Below, one piece after another: positions 284 to 48,028 of a DNA stretch of 48,768 nucleotides. The stretch spans positions 1 to 48,768 of the forward strand of contig VGOE01000008.1 in NCBI GenBank assembly GCA_016876035.1. The letters are read 5' to 3'. The DNA comes from Chloroflexota bacterium. GTDB taxonomy: Bacteria; Chloroflexota; Dehalococcoidia; UBA2247; RBG-13-53-26. Within the stretch, counting starts at the first letter, position 1. Every line of letters starts with the position of its first letter. The position numbers were made by a program, and so were the translations under genes. Under the pieces are notes generated by a model. The model made no database searches. It saw nothing but the letters and a program-made list of their open reading frames with translations, and had not been told where the DNA came from.

Positions 284-2962
284 GTGACCGGTGACGAAAT
301 CAGGAAGGCTTTTCTCCAGTTCTTTGAAGGCAAGGGGCATACTGTTATCCCTAGCTCATCTCTGGTGCCTCGGGATGACCCTACCCTTTTGCTAACTACT
401 GCGGGGATGGTGCAGATTAAGCCCTACTTTTTGGGTTTAGCCATCCCACCCAACCCCCGCCTGGCCTCCTGTCAGAAGTGCTTTCGCACCAGCGACATCG
501 ACTCGGTGGGGGATAACATCCACCTTACCTTTTTTGAGATGCTGGGGAACTTCAGCGTGGGGGACTACTTCAAAAAGGAGGCCATTGAATGGGCCTGGGA
601 GTTCGTCATCCAGCAGCTCAAGTTGCCACCGGAGTGCTTGTGGATCACCGTCTTTCTGGACGACGACGAGGCTTTCCAGTACTGGCGAGAGATAGGAGTC
701 CCGGTTGGGAAGATTGTGCGGCGGGATGAGAAGGACAACTTCTGGGGACCAGCCGGTGATTCAGGCCCCTGCGGCCCGTGCAGTGAGATTCACTACGATT
801 TTGGGCCGGAATTCGGCTGTGGCAGACCCGACTGTGTGCCGGGATGCGATTGCTCTCGCTTCTCCGAGATATGGAATCTGGTCTTCACGCAGTACAACCA
901 GGATAAAGAAGGGAAACGCACGCTGCTGCCTAAGCCTAATATAGATACTGGCATGGGGCTGGAGCGGACGGCAACAGTAATACAGGGCAAGAGGTCGGTG
1001 TATGAAACCGATCTGTTCGCACCCATAGTTGCCAGAGTAGCCGACGTAGCTGGAAAGAGGTGCGGTGAGGATGAGGCGGCAGACCGGGCCATCAGGATAG
1101 TGGCCGAGCACAGCCGGGCCATAACCTTTCTCATCGCTGACGGGGTTCTTCCGAGCAACGAGGGGAGGGGCTATGTGCTGCGCCGTGTGCTGAGACGAGC
1201 TGCTCTGTTTGGGAGGAAGTTGGGATTGAATGAGCCTTTCCTCAATGGGGTGGCCAACATAGTTGTTGATAAGATGGGGCGTCTCTACCCCGAGTTGGCG
1301 AGAAACAAAGAGCTTATCCTTCAGGTCATCGGTCTGGAAGAGGAGAGATTTGGTCAAACGCTGGATACCGGACTCAACTGGCTAGAGAGGATAATGGAGG
1401 AAGCTGAGACAAAAGGGAAGAAGAGGATAGCCGGGAAAGATATCTTTATGCTGTATGATACCTATGGTTTCCCTGATGGGCTAACTGCAGAGGTAGTGGC
1501 GGAGCGCGGTTTTTCGGTTGACCTGGAGGGATTCGAACAGGAGATGGAGCGTCAGCGGGGGAGAGCACGGGCAGCGCAAAAGATTAGTCCAAAGAGCATA
1601 TTAAGTTCCGAGGTTTTTGGGACACCGAGTATCTTAGTTGGCGCCCCCGGTGGCACGAAGTTTGTCGGCTATGAGAAGCTAAGGCATCGAACCTCTGTTG
1701 TTGGTCTGCGGGTCGACGGCAAGTCGGTGGACATGGTGGCCGAAGGTCAAGACGCAGAGGTGATTCTAGAAGAGACGCCCTTCTACGGTGAGATGGGAGG
1801 GCAGGTAGGAGATAGCGGCGAGATTCGTGGCCCGGCAGGCAAGGTAACTATTAGCTACGCCACAAGACCTGTCCCAGACCTTGTGGCTCATATAGGCAAG
1901 GTGAAAGAGGGCTATCTCTCTGTAGGCGACCTTGTGGATGCCGAGGTTGATTTAACTCGCCGTCTTGATATCGCTCGCAACCATACGGCGACTCATCTGC
2001 TTCAAGCTGCCTTGCGGAAAGTTCTAGGGGAGCATGTCCACCAGACCGGCTCTCTGGTAGCTCCGGACAGATTCCGATTTGATTACACTCAGCTTGTGGG
2101 GATTACCCCGGAGCAATTAGCGGAGATTCAGCACCTGGTCAATGAGAGCGTAAGGGAGAATCTGCCAGTAATAGTGGCGGAGATACCCCACAGCGAAGCT
2201 CAAGCCAGAGGTGCTATCGCCCTCTTTGGGGAGAAGTATGGAGATGTAGTTCGAATGGTACAGGTCGGCGAACCTCCTTGCAGCATTGAGCTGTGTGGTG
2301 GCACCCATGTTCGATCCACCGGTGAGATAGGCCTGTTCCATGTTCTCAGCGAAAGCAGCATTGGGTCAGGGGCGCGGCGTATTGAGGCGGTCACCGGTAG
2401 AGGGGCGGAAAGATTCTTCCAAGAACACATTTCTGTTCTGGAAGCAACGGCACACCAGCTCCAGACCATGCCTGAGCAGGTGGCGGAGAAGGTCTCTGCT
2501 CTTCTCCAGGAGCTGGATCGGGAACGCAAGCGGGCGCTGGACCTGGAACGCAAGCTAGCACGCCGAGAAGCCGATTCACTGCTATCTCAGGTTGAGTCAA
2601 TTGCAGGCATCAACGTTTTGTCAGCGAAAATGTCAGCCGTGAGTCCAGAAGCCATGCGGGAGGCGGGAGACAGATTGAAGGAGCATTTGAAGAGCGGCGT
2701 GATTGTATTGGGCACAGTCCACAACGACAAGCCCAGCTTTGTGGCTATGGTCACCCCTGACCTGGTAGCCAAGGGATTTCATGCTGGAGACCTTGTGAAG
2801 CAGGTGGCGAAGGTGGCGGGAGGTGGGGGAGGGGGGAGGGCTGAGTTAGGGCAGGGCAGTGGCAAAGATGCCAGCAAGCTGGATGAGGCGCTTAGGACCG
2901 TCCCAAAGATCATTGCTGTTCATTATGATAAAGACTCGGGGAAGTGGAAGAGAAGTGGATAA
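284..2962 (+). CDS. alaS: Alanyl-tRNA synthetase
   Basis: Charges tRNA-Ala with alanine in the cytoplasm (class II synthetase). The 892-residue product has the full bacterial domain order. The aminoacylation core begins near residue 1 with RKAFLQFFEGKGH and the TTAGM motif. A Cys-rich segment near residues 165-190 follows. The editing domain carries HTATHLLQ near residue 567 and CGGTH near residue 672, both zinc/editing motifs. A coiled region and a Gly-rich C-Ala domain (VAGGGGGGRAELGQG) close the protein. The start is GTG at 284, because an in-frame stop lies just upstream and the next Met is past the first motif. No strong ribosome binding site is visible. ruvX starts 4 bases after the stop, as is common in bacteria. 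Confidence 0.97.
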   Translation: MTGDEIRKAFLQFFEGKGHTVIPSSSLVPRDDPTLLLTTAGMVQIKPYFLGLAIPPNPRLASCQKCFRTSDIDSVGDNIHLTFFEMLGNFSVGDYFKKEAIEWAWEFVIQQLKLPPECLWITVFLDDDEAFQYWREIGVPVGKIVRRDEKDNFWGPAGDSGPCGPCSEIHYDFGPEFGCGRPDCVPGCDCSRFSEIWNLVFTQYNQDKEGKRTLLPKPNIDTGMGLERTATVIQGKRSVYETDLFAPIVARVADVAGKRCGEDEAADRAIRIVAEHSRAITFLIADGVLPSNEGRGYVLRRVLRRAALFGRKLGLNEPFLNGVANIVVDKMGRLYPELARNKELILQVIGLEEERFGQTLDTGLNWLERIMEEAETKGKKRIAGKDIFMLYDTYGFPDGLTAEVVAERGFSVDLEGFEQEMERQRGRARAAQKISPKSILSSEVFGTPSILVGAPGGTKFVGYEKLRHRTSVVGLRVDGKSVDMVAEGQDAEVILEETPFYGEMGGQVGDSGEIRGPAGKVTISYATRPVPDLVAHIGKVKEGYLSVGDLVDAEVDLTRRLDIARNHTATHLLQAALRKVLGEHVHQTGSLVAPDRFRFDYTQLVGITPEQLAEIQHLVNESVRENLPVIVAEIPHSEAQARGAIALFGEKYGDVVRMVQVGEPPCSIELCGGTHVRSTGEIGLFHVLSESSIGSGARRIEAVTGRGAERFFQEHISVLEATAHQLQTMPEQVAEKVSALLQELDRERKRALDLERKLARREADSLLSQVESIAGINVLSAKMSAVSPEAMREAGDRLKEHLKSGVIVLGTVHNDKPSFVAMVTPDLVAKGFHAGDLVKQVAKVAGGGGGGRAELGQGSGKDASKLDEALRTVPKIIAVHYDKDSGKWKRSG

Positions 2963-2966
2963 TAAC

Positions 2967-3398
2967 ATGGGAGTGGGCCGTGTTCTGGGGCTGGATATCG
3001 GGGAGCGATGGATTGGGGTGGCTCTCAGCGACCCTAGCGGAATCCTGGCCAGCCCTTTGACGCGGGTCGTTGTGACCAGTACAGAAGCTGCGGCGGAGGC
3101 TATCTGCCAGTTGGTCCGTCAGCATGAGGTAGGCCGCATTGTGGCCGGGCTCCCATATTCTATGGACGGCAGTTTGGGACGGCAAGCACAGCGGGTTCAA
3201 GGTTTCTTGCAGACGCTTTCCTTATATCTTGAGATTCCTATAGAAACCTGGGATGAGCGCTTATCCACGGTGGGCGCAGAGCGGCGCATGAGAGAGGCTG
3301 GCGTTGGCAAGGGGGAGAGAAAGGGGAAGATAGACGCAGCGGCGGCAACGCTCATCCTGCAAGGGTATTTGGACAGGGCACGCTCCGGGTGCGAATAG
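2967..3398 (+). CDS. ruvX: RuvX/YqgF-type Holliday junction resolvase
   Basis: RNase H-fold protein of the YqgF family, implicated in 16S rRNA 5'-end maturation and proposed to resolve Holliday junctions. The 143-residue product has the expected length. It begins with the catalytic LGLDIGERWIGVALSDP strand and carries the conserved GLPYSMDGSLG loop, the WDERLST motif and a C-terminal KIDAAAATLILQGYLD segment. I chose ATG 2967, just after the alaS stop, over upstream in-frame codons inside alaS, since the family starts directly at the first beta strand. It is probably translated from the alaS transcript. Confidence 0.93.
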   Translation: MGVGRVLGLDIGERWIGVALSDPSGILASPLTRVVVTSTEAAAEAICQLVRQHEVGRIVAGLPYSMDGSLGRQAQRVQGFLQTLSLYLEIPIETWDERLSTVGAERRMREAGVGKGERKGKIDAAAATLILQGYLDRARSGCE

Positions 3399-3465
3399 TC
3401 CCGTATCCAGTTTTTGGAGGCTATCCCAGAGACTGTGCCCCTCGTGAGAGGTGGTGGTTCCTGTC

Positions 3466-4320
3466 ATGACCAAGCTTGTAGCCCTCATTGGGTATCCATT
3501 ACAACATTCTATTTCGCCGGCCTTCCAGCAAGCGGCCTTCGATTTCTATGGGCTAGACATCCGCTACGAAAAATGGGAAGTAGAGGCATCTCATCTGGAA
3601 GCAACGGTAAACCGTCTTCGTCAGCCTTCAGTCCTGGGGGCGAATGTAACCATACCGCATAAGGAAGTGGTGGTGCCTCTCCTGGACGAGGTAGATGAGG
3701 TTGTGCGGCAGATAGGGGCGGTGAATACCATCGTGCAGAGGGATGGCAGACTGTTGGGCTATAACACAGACGCCCCTGGCTTTGTGAGGGCCTTACGAGG
3801 TGATGGCCAATTCGAGCCACGGGGTAAGTGGGCTGTCCTTCTGGGCGCTGGGGGCGCTGCCAGAGGGGTGGCCTTCGCCCTGGTGACGGAGGGCGTCAGC
3901 CGCCTGACTATCATCAACCGCACCCTGGGGAGGGCGGAGTGTCTGGGAAGTGTGATACGGGAAGGTGCTGGGGCACGGGTAGAAATAATCGTTCTACCCT
4001 GGGAAGAAGCTGAATCGGGCGAAGCGCTGTCTGGTTGCCATCTGCTGGTCAACTGCACTTCTGTGGGGATGAAGCATAGTCCGACAGAGGACAAGAGTCC
4101 TCTGAGGGGGGGGGCGCTGCCGGGGAATGCCCTGGTGTGCGATTTAGTATATAATCCTATAGAGACGCCGCTATTGAGGGAAGCTAAGAAAGCAGGGTCG
4201 AGGGTTCTAGGGGGACTGTCTATGCTGGTCTATCAGGGCGCGGCCTCTTTCGAGATGTGGACAGACAGGAAGGCTCCTGTTGACATCATGTTGAAGCGAG
4301 CCAGGGAATCACTGGATTAG
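3466..4320 (+). CDS. aroE: Shikimate dehydrogenase
   Basis: NADPH-dependent reduction of 3-dehydroshikimate to shikimate. The 284-residue product has the substrate domain first (GYPLQHSISPAFQ) and NVTIPHK ending in the catalytic Lys66. YNTDAPGF supplies Asp102, and a Rossmann glycine loop follows (LGAGGAARG, near residue 127). ATG 3466 is preferred to GTG 3451 because a GAGAGGTGG Shine-Dalgarno sits upstream of it. It opens a run of shikimate genes (aroE, aroC, aroK-aroB) interrupted by a DUF2007 gene and a TIM-barrel gene. A run of nine G within the coding sequence near 4105-4113 is a possible slippage or sequencing hot spot. Confidence 0.95.
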   Translation: MTKLVALIGYPLQHSISPAFQQAAFDFYGLDIRYEKWEVEASHLEATVNRLRQPSVLGANVTIPHKEVVVPLLDEVDEVVRQIGAVNTIVQRDGRLLGYNTDAPGFVRALRGDGQFEPRGKWAVLLGAGGAARGVAFALVTEGVSRLTIINRTLGRAECLGSVIREGAGARVEIIVLPWEEAESGEALSGCHLLVNCTSVGMKHSPTEDKSPLRGGALPGNALVCDLVYNPIETPLLREAKKAGSRVLGGLSMLVYQGAASFEMWTDRKAPVDIMLKRARESLD

Positions 4321-40659: not shown

Positions 40660-40890
40660 ATGGACAAGTGGGTGGTAGCCGCCAGGCTACTGGGCATTGG
40701 ATGGTACATCGGTATATCCATTGCGGGTGGCATATTTCTGGGGATTTGGCTTGACAAGAAGTTTGACACTTCTATATTATTTACGCTGGTCGGGCTATTC
40801 CTCGGCCTAGGGGTGGCAGCCCTTGGTAGTTATCGCATGATATCTCCATTGTTGAAAGAGCAGTCAAGCAAGCGCAAGGAGGACGATTAG
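40660..40890 (+). CDS. atpI: AtpI/AtpZ-like F0 accessory protein
   Basis: A 76-residue membrane protein with two spans (LLGIGWYIGISIAGGIFLGIWLD and ILFTLVGLFLGLGVAALGSY) and a charged cytoplasmic tail (KEQSSKRKEDD). It is in the position and size of AtpI/AtpZ, which in other bacteria help assemble the c-ring or move Mg2+/Ca2+. The stop TAG overlaps the GTG start of atpB by 1 base. It opens the ATP synthase operon, which continues without interruption to atpC. Confidence 0.8.
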   Translation: MDKWVVAARLLGIGWYIGISIAGGIFLGIWLDKKFDTSILFTLVGLFLGLGVAALGSYRMISPLLKEQSSKRKEDD

Positions 40891-42041
40891 TGTCCCAGCT
40901 CGGCTGCTCTACCAGGTTACTGGTTGTAATCCTGCTGGCTGTCGCTGTCCTTTTCATTGTTGGGCTGATTGGTGGAGCCATCGGTCGCGCTCTTGAGATA
41001 GACTCGCCAGGCTTCCTCCACGTGCCCATGCTTGAGGTCCACAACTTCTTCCGAGGCGATGCGCTTTTTGGATCCGGAAACTTCACCATCTCCAACACCA
41101 TGATTGCCTCTTGGCTTACGGTCATTTTGGTTGTAGCTATTGCCTTTGTGGCTACCCGCAAGATGAAAGTTATCCCTGGCCGCCTGCAAGGTATGGTAGA
41201 GGTAGCAGCAGAGGCTCTGTTAGGCTTTGTGGAAAGTGTGGCTGGTAAGAAAGACGGCCGAAGATTCTTCCCTGTGGTGGCTACTATATTCATCTTCGTT
41301 ATATTCAATGCCTACCTCGCTCTGATGCCTATTTTTGGCCCTGGTATTCATGTCACTGAGCAAGAGGCGGTACATGCGGCCAGCACTGGTACTGTCACCG
41401 AAGTCCTGGTTACAGGTCAGGAGAAGGTCAAGAAAGGCGATATAATCCTGCGTCTGGACACCGGGGAGGAAATCGAAGCTCCTATGAGTGGCCACATACA
41501 TCTCGATATAGGGGAAGGCGATGCCGTTTCTGCCAATGCTTCAGTGGCCTCAATCAAGAACAAGCCACCACTTTTTCGGTCTGCTAACACAGATATCAAT
41601 ATGACCCTGGCCCTGGCTCTTGTGGCTGTCTTGTCCATCGAATTATGGGGATTGAGATCAAGGGGGCGGCGTCATTACCTGAGTGAGTATCTCAATTTCG
41701 GGGAGCTAACCAGGGGCATCAAGATGTTGTTCCAAGGGAAGATAGCTGCAGCCCCAATGGCGATTGTCACCGGGGTGATCAATGTATTCATGGGTGTCAT
41801 AGAAGTAATAAGCCACGCTACACGCATGATCAGTTTCGCCTTCCGTCTCTTTGGCAACATGACTGCGGGGGAAATACTGCTCCTGTCAGCCACGTTTCTC
41901 ATCCCATGGATGATGGCCATCCCGTTTTACGGACTTGAGCTTCTCATCGGGTTTATTCAAGCACTTATTTTCGCAGGATTGACTCTGGTATGGGCCACTA
42001 TGGCTGTGGCTGAAACCAGCGAAGAGCATCAAACAACTTAG
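40890..42041 (+). CDS. atpB: ATP synthase F0 subunit a with an inserted barrel-sandwich domain
   Basis: Proton-channel subunit, 383 residues. TM segments in order are LLVVILLAVAVLFIVGLIGG, WLTVILVVAIAFVATRKM, FFPVVATIFIFVIFNAYLALMPIF, TDINMTLALALVAVLSIELWGL, and later helices with the essential Arg in FAFRLFGNMTAGE. Between MPIFGP and the PLFRSANTDINMTL segment lies an extra ~80 residues (about 153-232). It has two lipoyl/biotinyl-like halves: GTVTEVLVTGQEKVKKGD...LR, and EIEAPMSGHIHLDIGEGDAV...I. No MKM or DKA lysine is present, so it is not modified like a carrier. Topology puts this loop outside the membrane. GTG 40890 follows AAGGAGG. Confidence 0.93.
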   Translation: MSQLGCSTRLLVVILLAVAVLFIVGLIGGAIGRALEIDSPGFLHVPMLEVHNFFRGDALFGSGNFTISNTMIASWLTVILVVAIAFVATRKMKVIPGRLQGMVEVAAEALLGFVESVAGKKDGRRFFPVVATIFIFVIFNAYLALMPIFGPGIHVTEQEAVHAASTGTVTEVLVTGQEKVKKGDIILRLDTGEEIEAPMSGHIHLDIGEGDAVSANASVASIKNKPPLFRSANTDINMTLALALVAVLSIELWGLRSRGRRHYLSEYLNFGELTRGIKMLFQGKIAAAPMAIVTGVINVFMGVIEVISHATRMISFAFRLFGNMTAGEILLLSATFLIPWMMAIPFYGLELLIGFIQALIFAGLTLVWATMAVAETSEEHQTT

Positions 42042-42067: not shown

Positions 42068-42298
<231 letters not shown>

Positions 42299-42326: not shown

Positions 42327-42455
42327 ATGGGAAATGATGGTTTGCCAATTTCCATAGCGATTATCATCGCCGTGGTGATTCTAGGAGCGCTCGGATTCGT
42401 GGGATGGGTCGTATCGTCAATTATTACCCATGCAGTGGCAACGCCGACCGGATAG
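42327..42455 (+). CDS. 42-aa single-span membrane protein between atpE and atpF
   Basis: A microprotein not seen in the standard F0 operon. ATG 42327 is preceded by a strong GGAGGAAG Shine-Dalgarno and encodes MGNDGLPISIAIIIAVVI at the N terminus. The membrane stretch continues with LGALGFVGWVVSSIITHAV and ends in ATPTG. It is one hydrophobic helix of about 25 residues with few charges. It starts 28 bases after atpE and ends 27 bases before atpF, so it is almost surely co-transcribed. I do not recognise a family. A structural or assembly role in F0 is inferred only from its place. Confidence 0.75.
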   Translation: MGNDGLPISIAIIIAVVILGALGFVGWVVSSIITHAVATPTG

Positions 42456-42482: not shown

Positions 42483-42986
42483 ATGCTGGATAAACTTGGC
42501 ATTGATGCACCAAGCCTGATCGCCTTCTTGATCAACTTCTTTATTCTGCTGGGGCTGCTAACACTGGTCCTGTACAGGCCGGTCACCAGGATGCTTGACC
42601 AGCGTTCCGCCAAAATAAAGGAAAGTCTGGAACAGGCCGAGCGCATAAAGCAGGAATCAGTCCGCGCTGAGGAAACGGTGAAAGCAGAGATAGAGGCCGG
42701 ACGCAGGGAGGGTCAAGCGCTGATAAATCAGGCGGCACAAACCGCTGAGAAGCTCAAGGAAGAGGCCAGAGCTGAGGCGAGACAGGAAGCAGAAGCCCTT
42801 ATTGCCAAAGCCCGCGTTGAAATCGACAGAGAAAGAGAAGAGAGCGTTAACCAGTTACGTCAGGAATTTGCCGATCTGGCTGTCCTGGCAGCGGAGAAGG
42901 TGATTGGCCAAGCCCTGGACAAGAAAGCGCACCAGCAGCTAATTGAGAAGGTTCTAGAGGAAGGCCTGACTGCCAGGAAAGAGTAA
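42483..42986 (+). CDS. atpF: ATP synthase F0 subunit b
   Basis: Peripheral stalk subunit, 167 residues. A single N-terminal membrane span (SLIAFLINFFILLGLLTLVLYRPVTRML) is followed by a long charged coiled coil (for example LEQAERIKQESVRAEETVKAEIEAGRREG) that reaches F1. The C terminus (LAVLAAEKVIGQALDKKAHQQLIEKVL) contacts delta. Length is usual. An AGGGAG motif precedes ATG 42483. Only one b gene is present, so a b2 homodimer is expected. Confidence 0.95.
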   Translation: MLDKLGIDAPSLIAFLINFFILLGLLTLVLYRPVTRMLDQRSAKIKESLEQAERIKQESVRAEETVKAEIEAGRREGQALINQAAQTAEKLKEEARAEARQEAEALIAKARVEIDREREESVNQLRQEFADLAVLAAEKVIGQALDKKAHQQLIEKVLEEGLTARKE

Positions 42987-42999
42987 GCCACAAGAGACG

Positions 43000-43533
43000 A
43001 TGCCGAAGGGTATTTCTGCGAAAAGGCATGCTCAAGCAGTGTTCCAAATCGCTCTGGAAGGCAAACAACTGGAGCGATGGCAGAGTGATTTGGAGACGAT
43101 AGCGGGCACACTCAAGAGTCCCGAGATTACTGCCATGCTGGAAAGTCCTAAGCTCAGGCTCGAGGAAAAGAGGAGGGTTCTGGAAGCTATTTTGCCAGGC
43201 ATAACACCTGCAGCAATGAATCTAGCTTACTTCCTGGTGGCCAAGAACCGCCTCCGTATCTTGCCAGACCTGCTGGCTGAATTTAGGCGCTTGCTAAATG
43301 CCTACCATGGGAGAGAAGTAGCCGAGGTGGTTACTGCAGTTCCCATCAGCGATGAAGACAGGGACAGGATCAAGAAAAGACTGGCCGCCCTCGTGGGTAA
43401 GGAGTTGGTGCTTACGCTTAAGGTCAATCCTGAAATCGAGGGTGGTCTGGTGGCCAGGGTCGGAGACAAGTTGGTTGACGGTAGCATACGCACCAGGCTT
43501 CAGGATTTAAGAAGGAGCCTGGCCCAGACCTGA
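43000..43533 (+). CDS. atpH: ATP synthase F1 subunit delta
   Basis: Links the b stalk to the alpha/beta head. The 177-residue product shows the OSCP/delta pattern. It has an N-terminal helical domain (SAKRHAQAVFQIALEGKQLERWQSDLETIAG) and the C-terminal signature (EVVTAVPISDEDRDRIKKRLAALVGKELVLTLKVNPEIEGGLVARVGDKLVDGSIRTRLQDL). ATG 43000 lies 13 bases after atpF. It is followed by an unusually long 198-base gap before atpA. Confidence 0.94.
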   Translation: MPKGISAKRHAQAVFQIALEGKQLERWQSDLETIAGTLKSPEITAMLESPKLRLEEKRRVLEAILPGITPAAMNLAYFLVAKNRLRILPDLLAEFRRLLNAYHGREVAEVVTAVPISDEDRDRIKKRLAALVGKELVLTLKVNPEIEGGLVARVGDKLVDGSIRTRLQDLRRSLAQT

Positions 43534-43579
43534 CAAAGTTGGCCACAGCTTGTTGGACAGAAATATCTTGAGATACTTG

Positions 43580-43632
43580 AGATACGTGAAGGCAACACCT
43601 CTACTTTCAGGAGAGGTAGATACGTGAAAGGG
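43580..43632 (+). repeat. Direct repeats flanking a hairpin in the atpH-atpA gap
   Basis: The 11-mer AGATACGTGAA occurs at 43580-43590 and 43618-43628, with a related GAGATAC nearby. Between them ACCTCT (near 43597) pairs with AGAGGT (near 43612) as a 6-bp hairpin. The gap also holds a run of eight C near 43686-43693. The whole arrangement looks regulatory rather than random. Confidence 0.5.
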
Positions 43633-43731
43633 TCTTTACAACTTATTGTGATGCTGGGTTTCCGAGGACGCCTTAGCCTGGTGGGCCCCCCCCTTGACGA
43701 AACGAAAGCGTGGTCAGAGGAGGTAAGATAG
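43624..43731 (+). CDS. Possible 35-aa leader peptide ending at the atpA start
   Basis: GTG 43624 with AGGAGAGGT upstream opens a 35-codon frame starting MKGSLQLIVMLGFRGRLSLV. Its TAG stop (43729-43731) directly abuts the atpA ATG (TAGATG). Such a junction allows translational coupling. The sequence is not recognised, and the run of C inside it could cause slippage. A strong AGAGGAGG for atpA lies within its last codons. It may be only a spacer that happens to be open. Confidence 0.35.
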   Translation: MKGSLQLIVMLGFRGRLSLVGPPLDETKAWSEEVR

Positions 43732-45243
43732 ATGGTAACCCGCGGTGAAGATATTGTATCTATCATCAAGCAGCAAATCGAGCAGTTCGGCACACAAGTA
43801 GCTATGGTGGACGTAGGCACGGTGGTGGAGGTAGCTGACGGTTTGGCGCATATCCACGGGCTTTCCGGTGTCAGATATAACGAGCTACTGGAGTTTCCCA
43901 AAGGCATCATAGGGATAGCATTGAACCTGGAGGAAGACAGCGTCGGAGCGGTAGTTCTCGGCGATTGTTCAGAGATTAAGGAGGGTGATGAGGTACGCTG
44001 TACAGGACGTATCCTGGAGGTGCCCGTAGGCGAGGGACTCATCGGACGGGTGATTGATCCCTTGGGACGGCCGCTTGATGGCAAAGGCACTATCAGGTAT
44101 CAGAAGACACGCCCCTTGGAAAGGGTGGCCCCGAACGTAGTTTTACGTGCTCCGGTTAGCGTCCCCGTACAAACGGGAATTAAGGCTATAGACAGCATGA
44201 TACCCATCGGGCGGGGACAGCGTGAGTTGATAATCGGCGACCGCTTCACTGGCAAATCAGCCATCTGTGTGGACACCATCATCAACCAGAAGGGTGGAGA
44301 CCTCATCTGCATCTACGCAGCCATTGGGCAGAAGACTTCAAAAGTAGCCCAGGTGGTGGCTACACTGGAGCCCTATGGTGCCATGCAACACACCATAGTG
44401 GTTTCGGCTAATGCCTCAGACCCGGCCCCTCTACAGTACCTTTGCCCTTATGCTGCCTGCGCTGTAGGGGAGGAGTTTATGGAGCTGGGCAAGGACGCGC
44501 TAGTGATCTATGACGACCTCTCGAAGCATGCCTGGTCCTACCGCCAGATCTCCTTGTTGTTGCGCCGCCCCCCTGGTCGAGAGGCTTACCCTGGTGACAT
44601 CTTCTATCTTCATAGCCGTCTCCTGGAGAGGGCAGCCAAGCTTTCCTCAGAACATGGAGGTGGTTCACTCACCGCTTTGCCTATTATTGAGACCCAGTTG
44701 GGTGATCTATCAGCCTATATCCCCACTAACGTCATTTCTATTACTGATGGCCAGATATACCTGGAAACGGATCTGTTCAATTCCGGGATTCGCCCTGCCA
44801 TGAACGTGGGGCTATCTGTATCAAGAGTAGGTGGATCAGCACAGACCAAGGCCATGAGAAAGGTAGCCGGAAGGGTGAGACTAGAACTAGCCCAGTACCG
44901 CGAGTTGGCTGCTTTTGCTCAGTTTGGCACTGCCGATCTTGACAAAGCAACCAGGGCACAGCTAGAACGCGGGCAAAGGATCACCGAGGTCCTAAAGCAG
45001 CCCCAATACAGCCCCATGTCCCTGGAGAAGGAAGTAACCATCCTGTATGCCGTCACCAATGGCTATCTGGACGATGTGCCCCTGGACAAGATAGCGTCTT
45101 TCGAGAATAGCTTACACCGGTTTATGGAAACCAACCACCCTGAAATAGGTAAAGATATCGCCAAGACCAAGGATCTCAGGCCGGAAACAGAAGAAGCGCT
45201 GAAAAAATCGATCCTCGAGTTCAAGCAAAGTAGCGTCTATTAG
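43732..45243 (+). CDS. atpA: ATP synthase F1 subunit alpha
   Basis: Non-catalytic nucleotide-binding head subunit, 503 residues. The N-terminal beta barrel ([33 protein letters not shown]) leads to the P-loop [11 protein letters not shown]. Alpha subunits usually have GDRQTGKTA, so Phe and Ser are variants here. Further motifs are [48 protein letters not shown] and [30 protein letters not shown] precedes ATG 43732. All expected domains and the C-terminal helical bundle are present. Confidence 0.97.
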
Positions 45244-45347
45244 GAAGAAGAATAAGATAGAGCAAGGCTTTTCTAACCACGGCATTGTGCCCGGGGAAAG
45301 AACACCGAGCTATGAAGAAGGGCTAAACTGGGAACAGGTAGAGAGTA

Positions 45348-46199
45348 GTGGCTAATATCCGTTTGCTTCGCCGGCGCATCCGTAGCATCCAATCCACAGC
45401 CAAGATTACCAAAGCTATGGAAACGATAGCTGCCTCCAAGATGAGGCGAGCTCAAGAGGCCGATTTGGCTGGTAGACCTTATGCTGAAAAGATACAACAG
45501 GTGCTGGCGGACCTGGCTGCACAGCCAAGAGGTGTCGCTCATCCCTTACTGGAGCGCCGAGAAACGAAGAGGATCGAGATAATTCACATCACCGCTGACC
45601 GTGGTCTGTGCGGTGGCCTCAACATCAACATGAACCGAAGCACAGCTAACTTCATCCTGCAACATGTTGACCCTTCTGTGCTTATAACGGTGGGCCGCAA
45701 AGGGAGAGACTACATGATGCGTTACAGGCGCGAGGTTCGGGCTGAGTTTACCGGAATCAGCGATCGCCCGTCCCTGGCGGATACTCTCCCTATATCTAGA
45801 ATTGTCATCGATGACTACAGCAACGGCTTCGTCGATCTGGTCTATCTAGCATACACTGAGTTTGTCACCACGATGACCCAGCGACCCGTGCTCCGCCAGT
45901 TGCTCCCCGTGGAGCCCGCGAAGGTAACGCATCGTGGTGAGATAGAGTACATTTACGAGCCCAGCAGTAAGATGGTTCTAGCGGAACTCCTGCCCCGCTT
46001 TGTGGAGATGGAGGTGTACCACGCTCTGCTAGAATCCATTGCCAGCGAGCAATCAGCCAGAATGGTAGCCATGCGCAATGCTACCGATAATGCCAATGAG
46101 TTGGTGCGGGACTTGACCGTGATGTACAACAAGGCGCGGCAAGAAATGATCACCACTGAACTTCTTGATATCACCGGAGGAGCAGAGGCGCTAGCTTAG
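45348..46199 (+). CDS. atpG: ATP synthase F1 subunit gamma
   Basis: Central rotor shaft, 283 residues. The N-terminal helix (LLRRRIRSIQSTAKITKAMETIAASKMRRAQ) and C-terminal helix (SARMVAMRNATDNANELVRDLTVMYNKARQEMITTELLDITGGAEAL) that form the coiled coil are clear. The middle has ITADRGLCGGLNINM. The start is GTG 45348, with AGGTAGAG upstream. The 104-base gap after atpA holds no gene. Confidence 0.96.
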   Translation: MANIRLLRRRIRSIQSTAKITKAMETIAASKMRRAQEADLAGRPYAEKIQQVLADLAAQPRGVAHPLLERRETKRIEIIHITADRGLCGGLNINMNRSTANFILQHVDPSVLITVGRKGRDYMMRYRREVRAEFTGISDRPSLADTLPISRIVIDDYSNGFVDLVYLAYTEFVTTMTQRPVLRQLLPVEPAKVTHRGEIEYIYEPSSKMVLAELLPRFVEMEVYHALLESIASEQSARMVAMRNATDNANELVRDLTVMYNKARQEMITTELLDITGGAEALA

Positions 46200-47600
<1,401 letters not shown>

Positions 47601-47602
47601 CC

Positions 47603-48028
47603 GTGGCTACCTTGAAACTAGAAATAGTTACAGCAGAGCGAATGACCTACTCTGGCGAAGTGGATATAGTCATCGCGCCCGGCGCTGCCGGACAATTGGC
47701 CATCTTGCCCCACCACGCCCCCCTGATGACCATGCTGGAACCAGGGGAGCTGTGCATCAGGAAAGGTGGTGAGGAAAGCTTCATCGCTATTACCGGGGGA
47801 TTTCTTGAGGTGCTCGACAACAGGGTGGTCATCCTGGCTGACGCGGCAGAGAGGGCTGAGGATATTGACTTGGCCCGCGCTACAGCAGCCAAAGAACGCG
47901 CCCAGGAAAGGCTTAAGGCCGGTGTGACTGATGCCGATCATGCCCGTGCCGAAGCAGCTCTACGCCGCTCTCTGGCGCGTCTGAAAGTTGCTGAACGGAG
48001 AAGAAGGAGGGAAAAGAGAATACCTTAG
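47603..48028 (+). CDS. atpC: ATP synthase F1 subunit epsilon
   Basis: Regulatory rotor subunit, 141 residues. The beta-sandwich is clear: [42 protein letters not shown], then [30 protein letters not shown]-terminal two-helix arm follows ([37 protein letters not shown]). The tail is strongly basic (RRRREKR). The start is GTG 47603. It ends the operon and converges with khpA. Confidence 0.95.

Follow-up and report, generated by a model that had tools for sequence, protein, structure and literature searches.

Few parts of the F-type ATP synthase, a universal machine, are as constrained as its subunit a (AtpB). Helices 3 and 4 of AtpB are joined by an extramembrane loop that is close to the periplasmic half-channel and differs from species to species (Guo et al. 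2019, PMC6377231). This loop contacts subunit b and was proposed to stand in for the mitochondrial subunit f, and it was considered unlikely to serve in proton transfer (PMC6377231).

An atpB gene with an enlarged helix 3-4 loop was found in a 48768 bp window, the whole stretch of DNA analysed, from a Dehalococcoidia genome (contig VGOE01000008.1 of assembly GCA_016876035.1), where the gene order atpI-B-E-(small ORF)-F-H-A-G-D-C is that of a standard F-type operon (Table 1). The gene begins with a GTG codon that overlaps the atpI stop by one base. Its product was identified as a member of the subunit a family, as it passed the PF00119 cut-off (128.5 bits against 33.9; 4.4e-37; aa 71-368 covered), is encoded within the atp operon and includes the arginine motif, with Arg319 invariant across the 45 subunit a sequences aligned. 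In the subunit c of the window, Na+ ligands were not apparent in the sequence, as judged by the general Na+ motif. The AlphaFold model of AtpB also includes an extra N-terminal helix upstream of the usual first core helix, and this helix is common to the relatives in the alignment.

Table 1. Coordinates of atp operon features in the window
Feature	Position	Strand	Basis or remark
atpI-like (ATPase_gene1)	40660..40890	+	PF09527, 1.1e-13
atpB, F-ATP synthase subunit a, 383 aa	40890..42041	+	PF00119
Extra N-terminal helix of AtpB, aa 8-34	40911..40991	+	AlphaFold model
Inserted barrel-sandwich (biotinyl/lipoyl-like) domain, aa 156-226, without modifiable lysine	41355..41567	+	PF00364, profile A4, empty site
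Hairpin LRLDTGEEIE (aa 187-196), replacing the carrier turn E-S/A-M-K-M-E-x	41448..41477	+	alignments
Codon of Arg319, FRLFGN motif, the essential subunit a arginine	41844..41846	+	alignment
atpE, subunit c	42068..42298	+	PF00137, 1.9e-15
42-aa single-helix ORF between atpE and atpF	42327..42455	+	conserved in class
atpF, subunit b	42483..42986	+	N-terminus no longer than in insert-free relatives
atpH, atpA, atpG, atpD, atpC, rest of normal F-type operon	43000..48028	+	ORFs

The insert lengthens the helix 3-4 loop of the core by about 68 residues, and the stretch from P147 to R230 spans ~85 residues in the window AtpB compared with ~14 in a chloroplast subunit a in alignments. An initial annotation of this DNA had placed the insert at 41345-41590. 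The insert itself was upheld, but its extent was reduced to that in Table 1 by the empty site in a same-order genome (L014 = L098; PFFGPGIHV-GEA-PLFRCANTD), which sets the insertion point between V155 and P227 of AtpB. From the topology of solved homologues (PMC6377231) and the order of helices in the model, it follows that the loop carrying the insert probably faces the outside of the membrane, in agreement with the outward position near the proton entry half-channel that the annotation had proposed.

Alignment of AtpB from related genomes revealed the insert at the same site in eight further genomes of the Dehalococcoidia family to which the window belongs, hence in 9 of 9 family genomes that have atpB, representing six genera; atpB was not found in one further family genome, which is 68% complete. 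The recovery of the insert from these independent genomes rules out an assembly or frame error as its source, and its family-specific distribution rules out an ordinary loop of the phylum. Two genomes (L008 and L009) carry the unit as a tandem duplicate, 163 aa in all. When 393 genomes of the class were searched with the insert profile, the family inserts scored 78-112 bits and all others 42 bits or less; the matches outside the family were carriers, as far as inspected, and at E ≤ 1e-4 no match was recognised as an AtpB from beyond the family. Similarly, no additional AtpB with the insert was found in a phylum-wide sample of 400 genomes.

The nearest outgroup AtpB sequences have an empty loop of 15-22 aa. 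In a tree of the AtpB core, the insert-bearing sequences (11, with two genomes represented twice) formed one clade with a support of 1.0, adjoining sequences with loops of 18-22 aa, and the simplest reading is that the insert was gained a single time, in the ancestor of the family. Two other genomes of the same order, G011 (90% complete) and G013 (98% complete), gave no AtpB match, and the F-type enzyme may be missing from them or very divergent.

The initial annotation had assigned the insert to the biotinyl/lipoyl, or barrel-sandwich, type, and homology searches bore this out beyond chance. The insert searched alone matched PF00364 (Biotin_lipoyl) with 24.4 bits, above the cut-off of 22.1, and this cut-off is passed with the isolated insert only, the score within full-length AtpB being 18.1 bits. 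Weaker Pfam matches of the isolated insert were to the HlyD, RnfC and Biotin_lipoyl_2 models, and in NCBIfam TIGR01730, a family of RND adaptors, ranked first (1.5e-7), ahead of carboxylase and E2 proteins. Searched singly, 9 of the 11 insert units matched PF00364 at E ≤ 0.01. In the PDB, a profile built from the 11 insert units of the family (A4) had 43 distinct matches at E ≤ 0.1 (best 3e-6), essentially all of them biotinyl/lipoyl proteins, with a few whose names suggest biotin-acceptor tags on unrelated proteins. The G-x-V, V-x-x-G-D, A-P-x-x-G and G-D-x-V positions are retained in the insert when it is aligned with canonical Dehalococcoidia carriers, and two glycines are the only invariant positions in profile A4. 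Derivation by recent copying of a carrier domain encoded elsewhere in the genome was rejected, as the only other matches there reach 18.5 and 14.6 bits.

The two similar halves that had been noted within the insert were not significant in the window sequence (P = 0.63 on shuffling) and were marginal in relatives (P 0.02-0.08), and the internal repeat was therefore dropped as proof of the fold. AlphaFold modelled full-length AtpB as a helical core, with Chloroflexus aurantiacus subunit a chains as the closest solved relatives; pLDDT over the insert was about 36-55, from an alignment that held only three insert-bearing sequences, and a model of the isolated insert with three insert sequences reached a mean pLDDT of 39.6. 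With no significant repeat in the window sequence and low AlphaFold confidence over the insert, the fold assignment rests on family homology, by which the insert is a divergent barrel-sandwich domain.

As the annotation had also stated, the domain lacks a modifiable lysine. In alignments with canonical Dehalococcoidia carriers, and with pyruvate carboxylase, L-D-T-G-E stands at the hairpin where the carriers have E-S-M-K-M, and the lysine and its motif are absent from all 11 insert units. As the hairpin lysine is missing, the insert cannot undergo the usual biotinylation or lipoylation. It is very probably a clade-specific barrel-sandwich insertion, gained once and with the hairpin lost, in an otherwise normal proton-type subunit a.

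Between most genera, insert sequences share 27-52% identity, compared with 65-78% for the AtpB core. In the least saturated pairs, dN/dS was 0.12-0.14 for the insert and 0.05-0.06 for the core; insert values of up to 0.45 came from pairs whose dS is unreliable. The insert is therefore a maintained protein domain under purifying selection, with a constraint weaker than that on the core, and its faster evolution fits a peripheral element that makes few fixed contacts. The inserts are acidic, with net charges of -6 to -28 across the family, the window copy (-6) being the least so.

Elsewhere in Dehalococcoidia the helix 3-4 loop is 14-41 aa long or enlarged to 43-238 aa, and the enlarged loops are not recognisably related in sequence to the family insert, which was thus rejected as an example of an ordinary long Dehalococcoidia loop. 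Unrelated AtpB loop inserts of 100-240 aa were seen in L090, L046 (238 aa), L036, L048, L050, L076, L103 and L106; those of L103 and L106 are His-rich, and some include paired cysteines. Eight long loops were searched and the sole match was DUF5666-like (L090; 0.0036, under the cut-off). Nearly all long loops are acidic. Loop length class changed about 6 times on the tree, compared with 44 times when labels were shuffled. The helix 3-4 loop is so a recurrent place for outward additions, of which the barrel-sandwich domain is the version found in this family, and its repeated enlargement in other lineages suggests that additions on the outer side are tolerated or favoured there.

The small ORF between atpE and atpF, which encodes a membrane protein, was also examined. 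It has 26 aligned relatives of 33-45 aa, found at this position in Dehalococcoidia and in a small number of other MAGs, which share an N-terminal M-x-x-x-G-[ILV]-P. A GGAGG ribosome site precedes it, the relatives have good ribosome sites, and purifying selection was evident (pN 0.012 vs pS 0.475 in one pair), while searches of Pfam, NCBIfam and PDB gave no match. As the ORF is also present in relatives without the AtpB insert, it was ruled out as a family-specific partner of the insert, and no other such partner gene was found over the part of the operon that was compared. It is a candidate for an undescribed F0 subunit that is independent of the insert.

In solved bacterial enzymes, according to the literature, loop 3-4 packs on the helices of subunit b at their outer ends. 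A compact acidic beta domain in this loop, beside the entry of the periplasmic half-channel, would form an external brace and rim: the brace would strengthen the a-b stator contact, and the rim would shape or shield the proton entrance, with the domain itself neither transferring protons nor carrying a cofactor. This role is proposed tentatively, from the position of the loop (PMC6377231). The initial annotation had suggested that the insert could gate protons, bind an envelope partner or stabilise the complex, and what is published on the loop favours a structural role over one in core proton transfer. Against the brace stand the low AlphaFold confidence over the insert, its faster evolution than that of the core and the comparison of atpF with that of insert-free relatives, which revealed no matching change in subunit b of the insert-bearing family. 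The identity of the insert taken together with a role as brace and rim is the best explanation overall, with a probability of roughly 0.45.

The domain could instead be a tolerated decoration, a unit predicted to fold alone and to have no function beyond not disturbing the enzyme. That the same loop takes many unrelated inserts (L090, L103/L106, L046), that the insert evolves faster than the core and that the loop has been considered unlikely to serve in proton transfer (PMC6377231) would all fit. However, the insert has not been lost from any of the nine genomes in six genera, it is under purifying selection, and the doubled unit has been retained in two genomes, so that decoration appears somewhat unlikely. 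It is rather unlikely that the domain is a putative functional outer stator module, for example an acidic cap that gathers protons or a place for an envelope partner to dock, with the loop a general site where Dehalococcoidia would have added various domains time and again to tune the enzyme.

Taken by itself, a docking domain that would bind an envelope or respiratory partner, or link neighbouring ATP synthases, is improbable. Barrel-sandwich domains do serve as protein-protein modules elsewhere, in HlyD/RND adaptors and RnfC, and the doubling in two genomes fits a role in avidity, but no family-specific gene turned up over the part of the atp operon that was compared, insert-free relatives also having the small ORF that follows atpE, and no conserved surface patch was found. 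Marginally less probable is a putative acidic surface at the entry half-channel that would gather protons or adjust access at low proton-motive force. The strongly negative charge of the family inserts (-6 to -28), shared by the inserts of most other lineages with long loops, the position of the loop adjoining the half-channel (PMC6377231) and a subunit c without apparent Na+ ligands are consistent with this. However, acidity is usual in outward soluble domains, the window copy has the weakest negative charge among the family inserts (-6), and profile A4 includes no conserved carboxylate or histidine, just the two invariant glycines. A working biotin or lipoate carrier is suggested by family homology but was rejected as extremely improbable, as all 11 units lack the lysine and its motif, and the known biotin and lipoate ligases are on the opposite side of the membrane from this loop.

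If the domain does brace the a-b contact and shape the entry rim, or has any other role, it would show how the proton entry side of the F-ATP synthase can be regulated or reinforced from outside the cell. For tagging or engineering of the stator, the loop is also a natural place to insert sequence. To our knowledge, no domain of this kind has been described as an insertion in subunit a, and a search of largely open-access literature found no paper on such an insertion in AtpB.

The nearest solved system is the C. aurantiacus subunit a (PDB 9itj series), which is alike in its core helices, essential arginine, operon and loop position. Its loop 3-4 is longer than that of a chloroplast subunit a, yet not recognisably a barrel-sandwich. 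For each complex, the entries of this series list two a chains, four b chains and three alpha chains, which suggests that this nearest solved enzyme has a double stator.

Biotinyl/lipoyl carriers, such as the 1.3S transcarboxylase subunit (1dcz), a carboxylase carrier (8hz4) and pyruvate carboxylase (4qsh), share their length and signature positions with the insert, whereas the insert has no lysine hairpin and sits in the outward loop of a membrane subunit. On the missing lysine, it is judged to be homologous to the carrier domains but not a functional member. RND_mfp (TIGR01730), HlyD and RnfC/NqrA proteins include domains of the same fold class that are cofactor-free protein-protein modules. 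Unlike the RND/HlyD adaptors, however, the insert is accompanied by no further adaptor domains and matches them over ~35 residues, far under the cut-offs, and at most it would work like the cofactor-free barrel-sandwich modules of such adaptors.

A further parallel was found in an OadB-type Na+ decarboxylase subunit (L153/L175), encoded in the same-order genome G011 (contig 9; coordinates 2821-4131). Among the relatives inspected, the OadB insert occurs in this one genome, and the other OadB sequences have no such insert. It is likewise a lysine-less barrel-sandwich, with 39% identity over 64 residues, and although the host protein differs from AtpB, it lies in the loop after the second helix of an ion-translocating membrane subunit.
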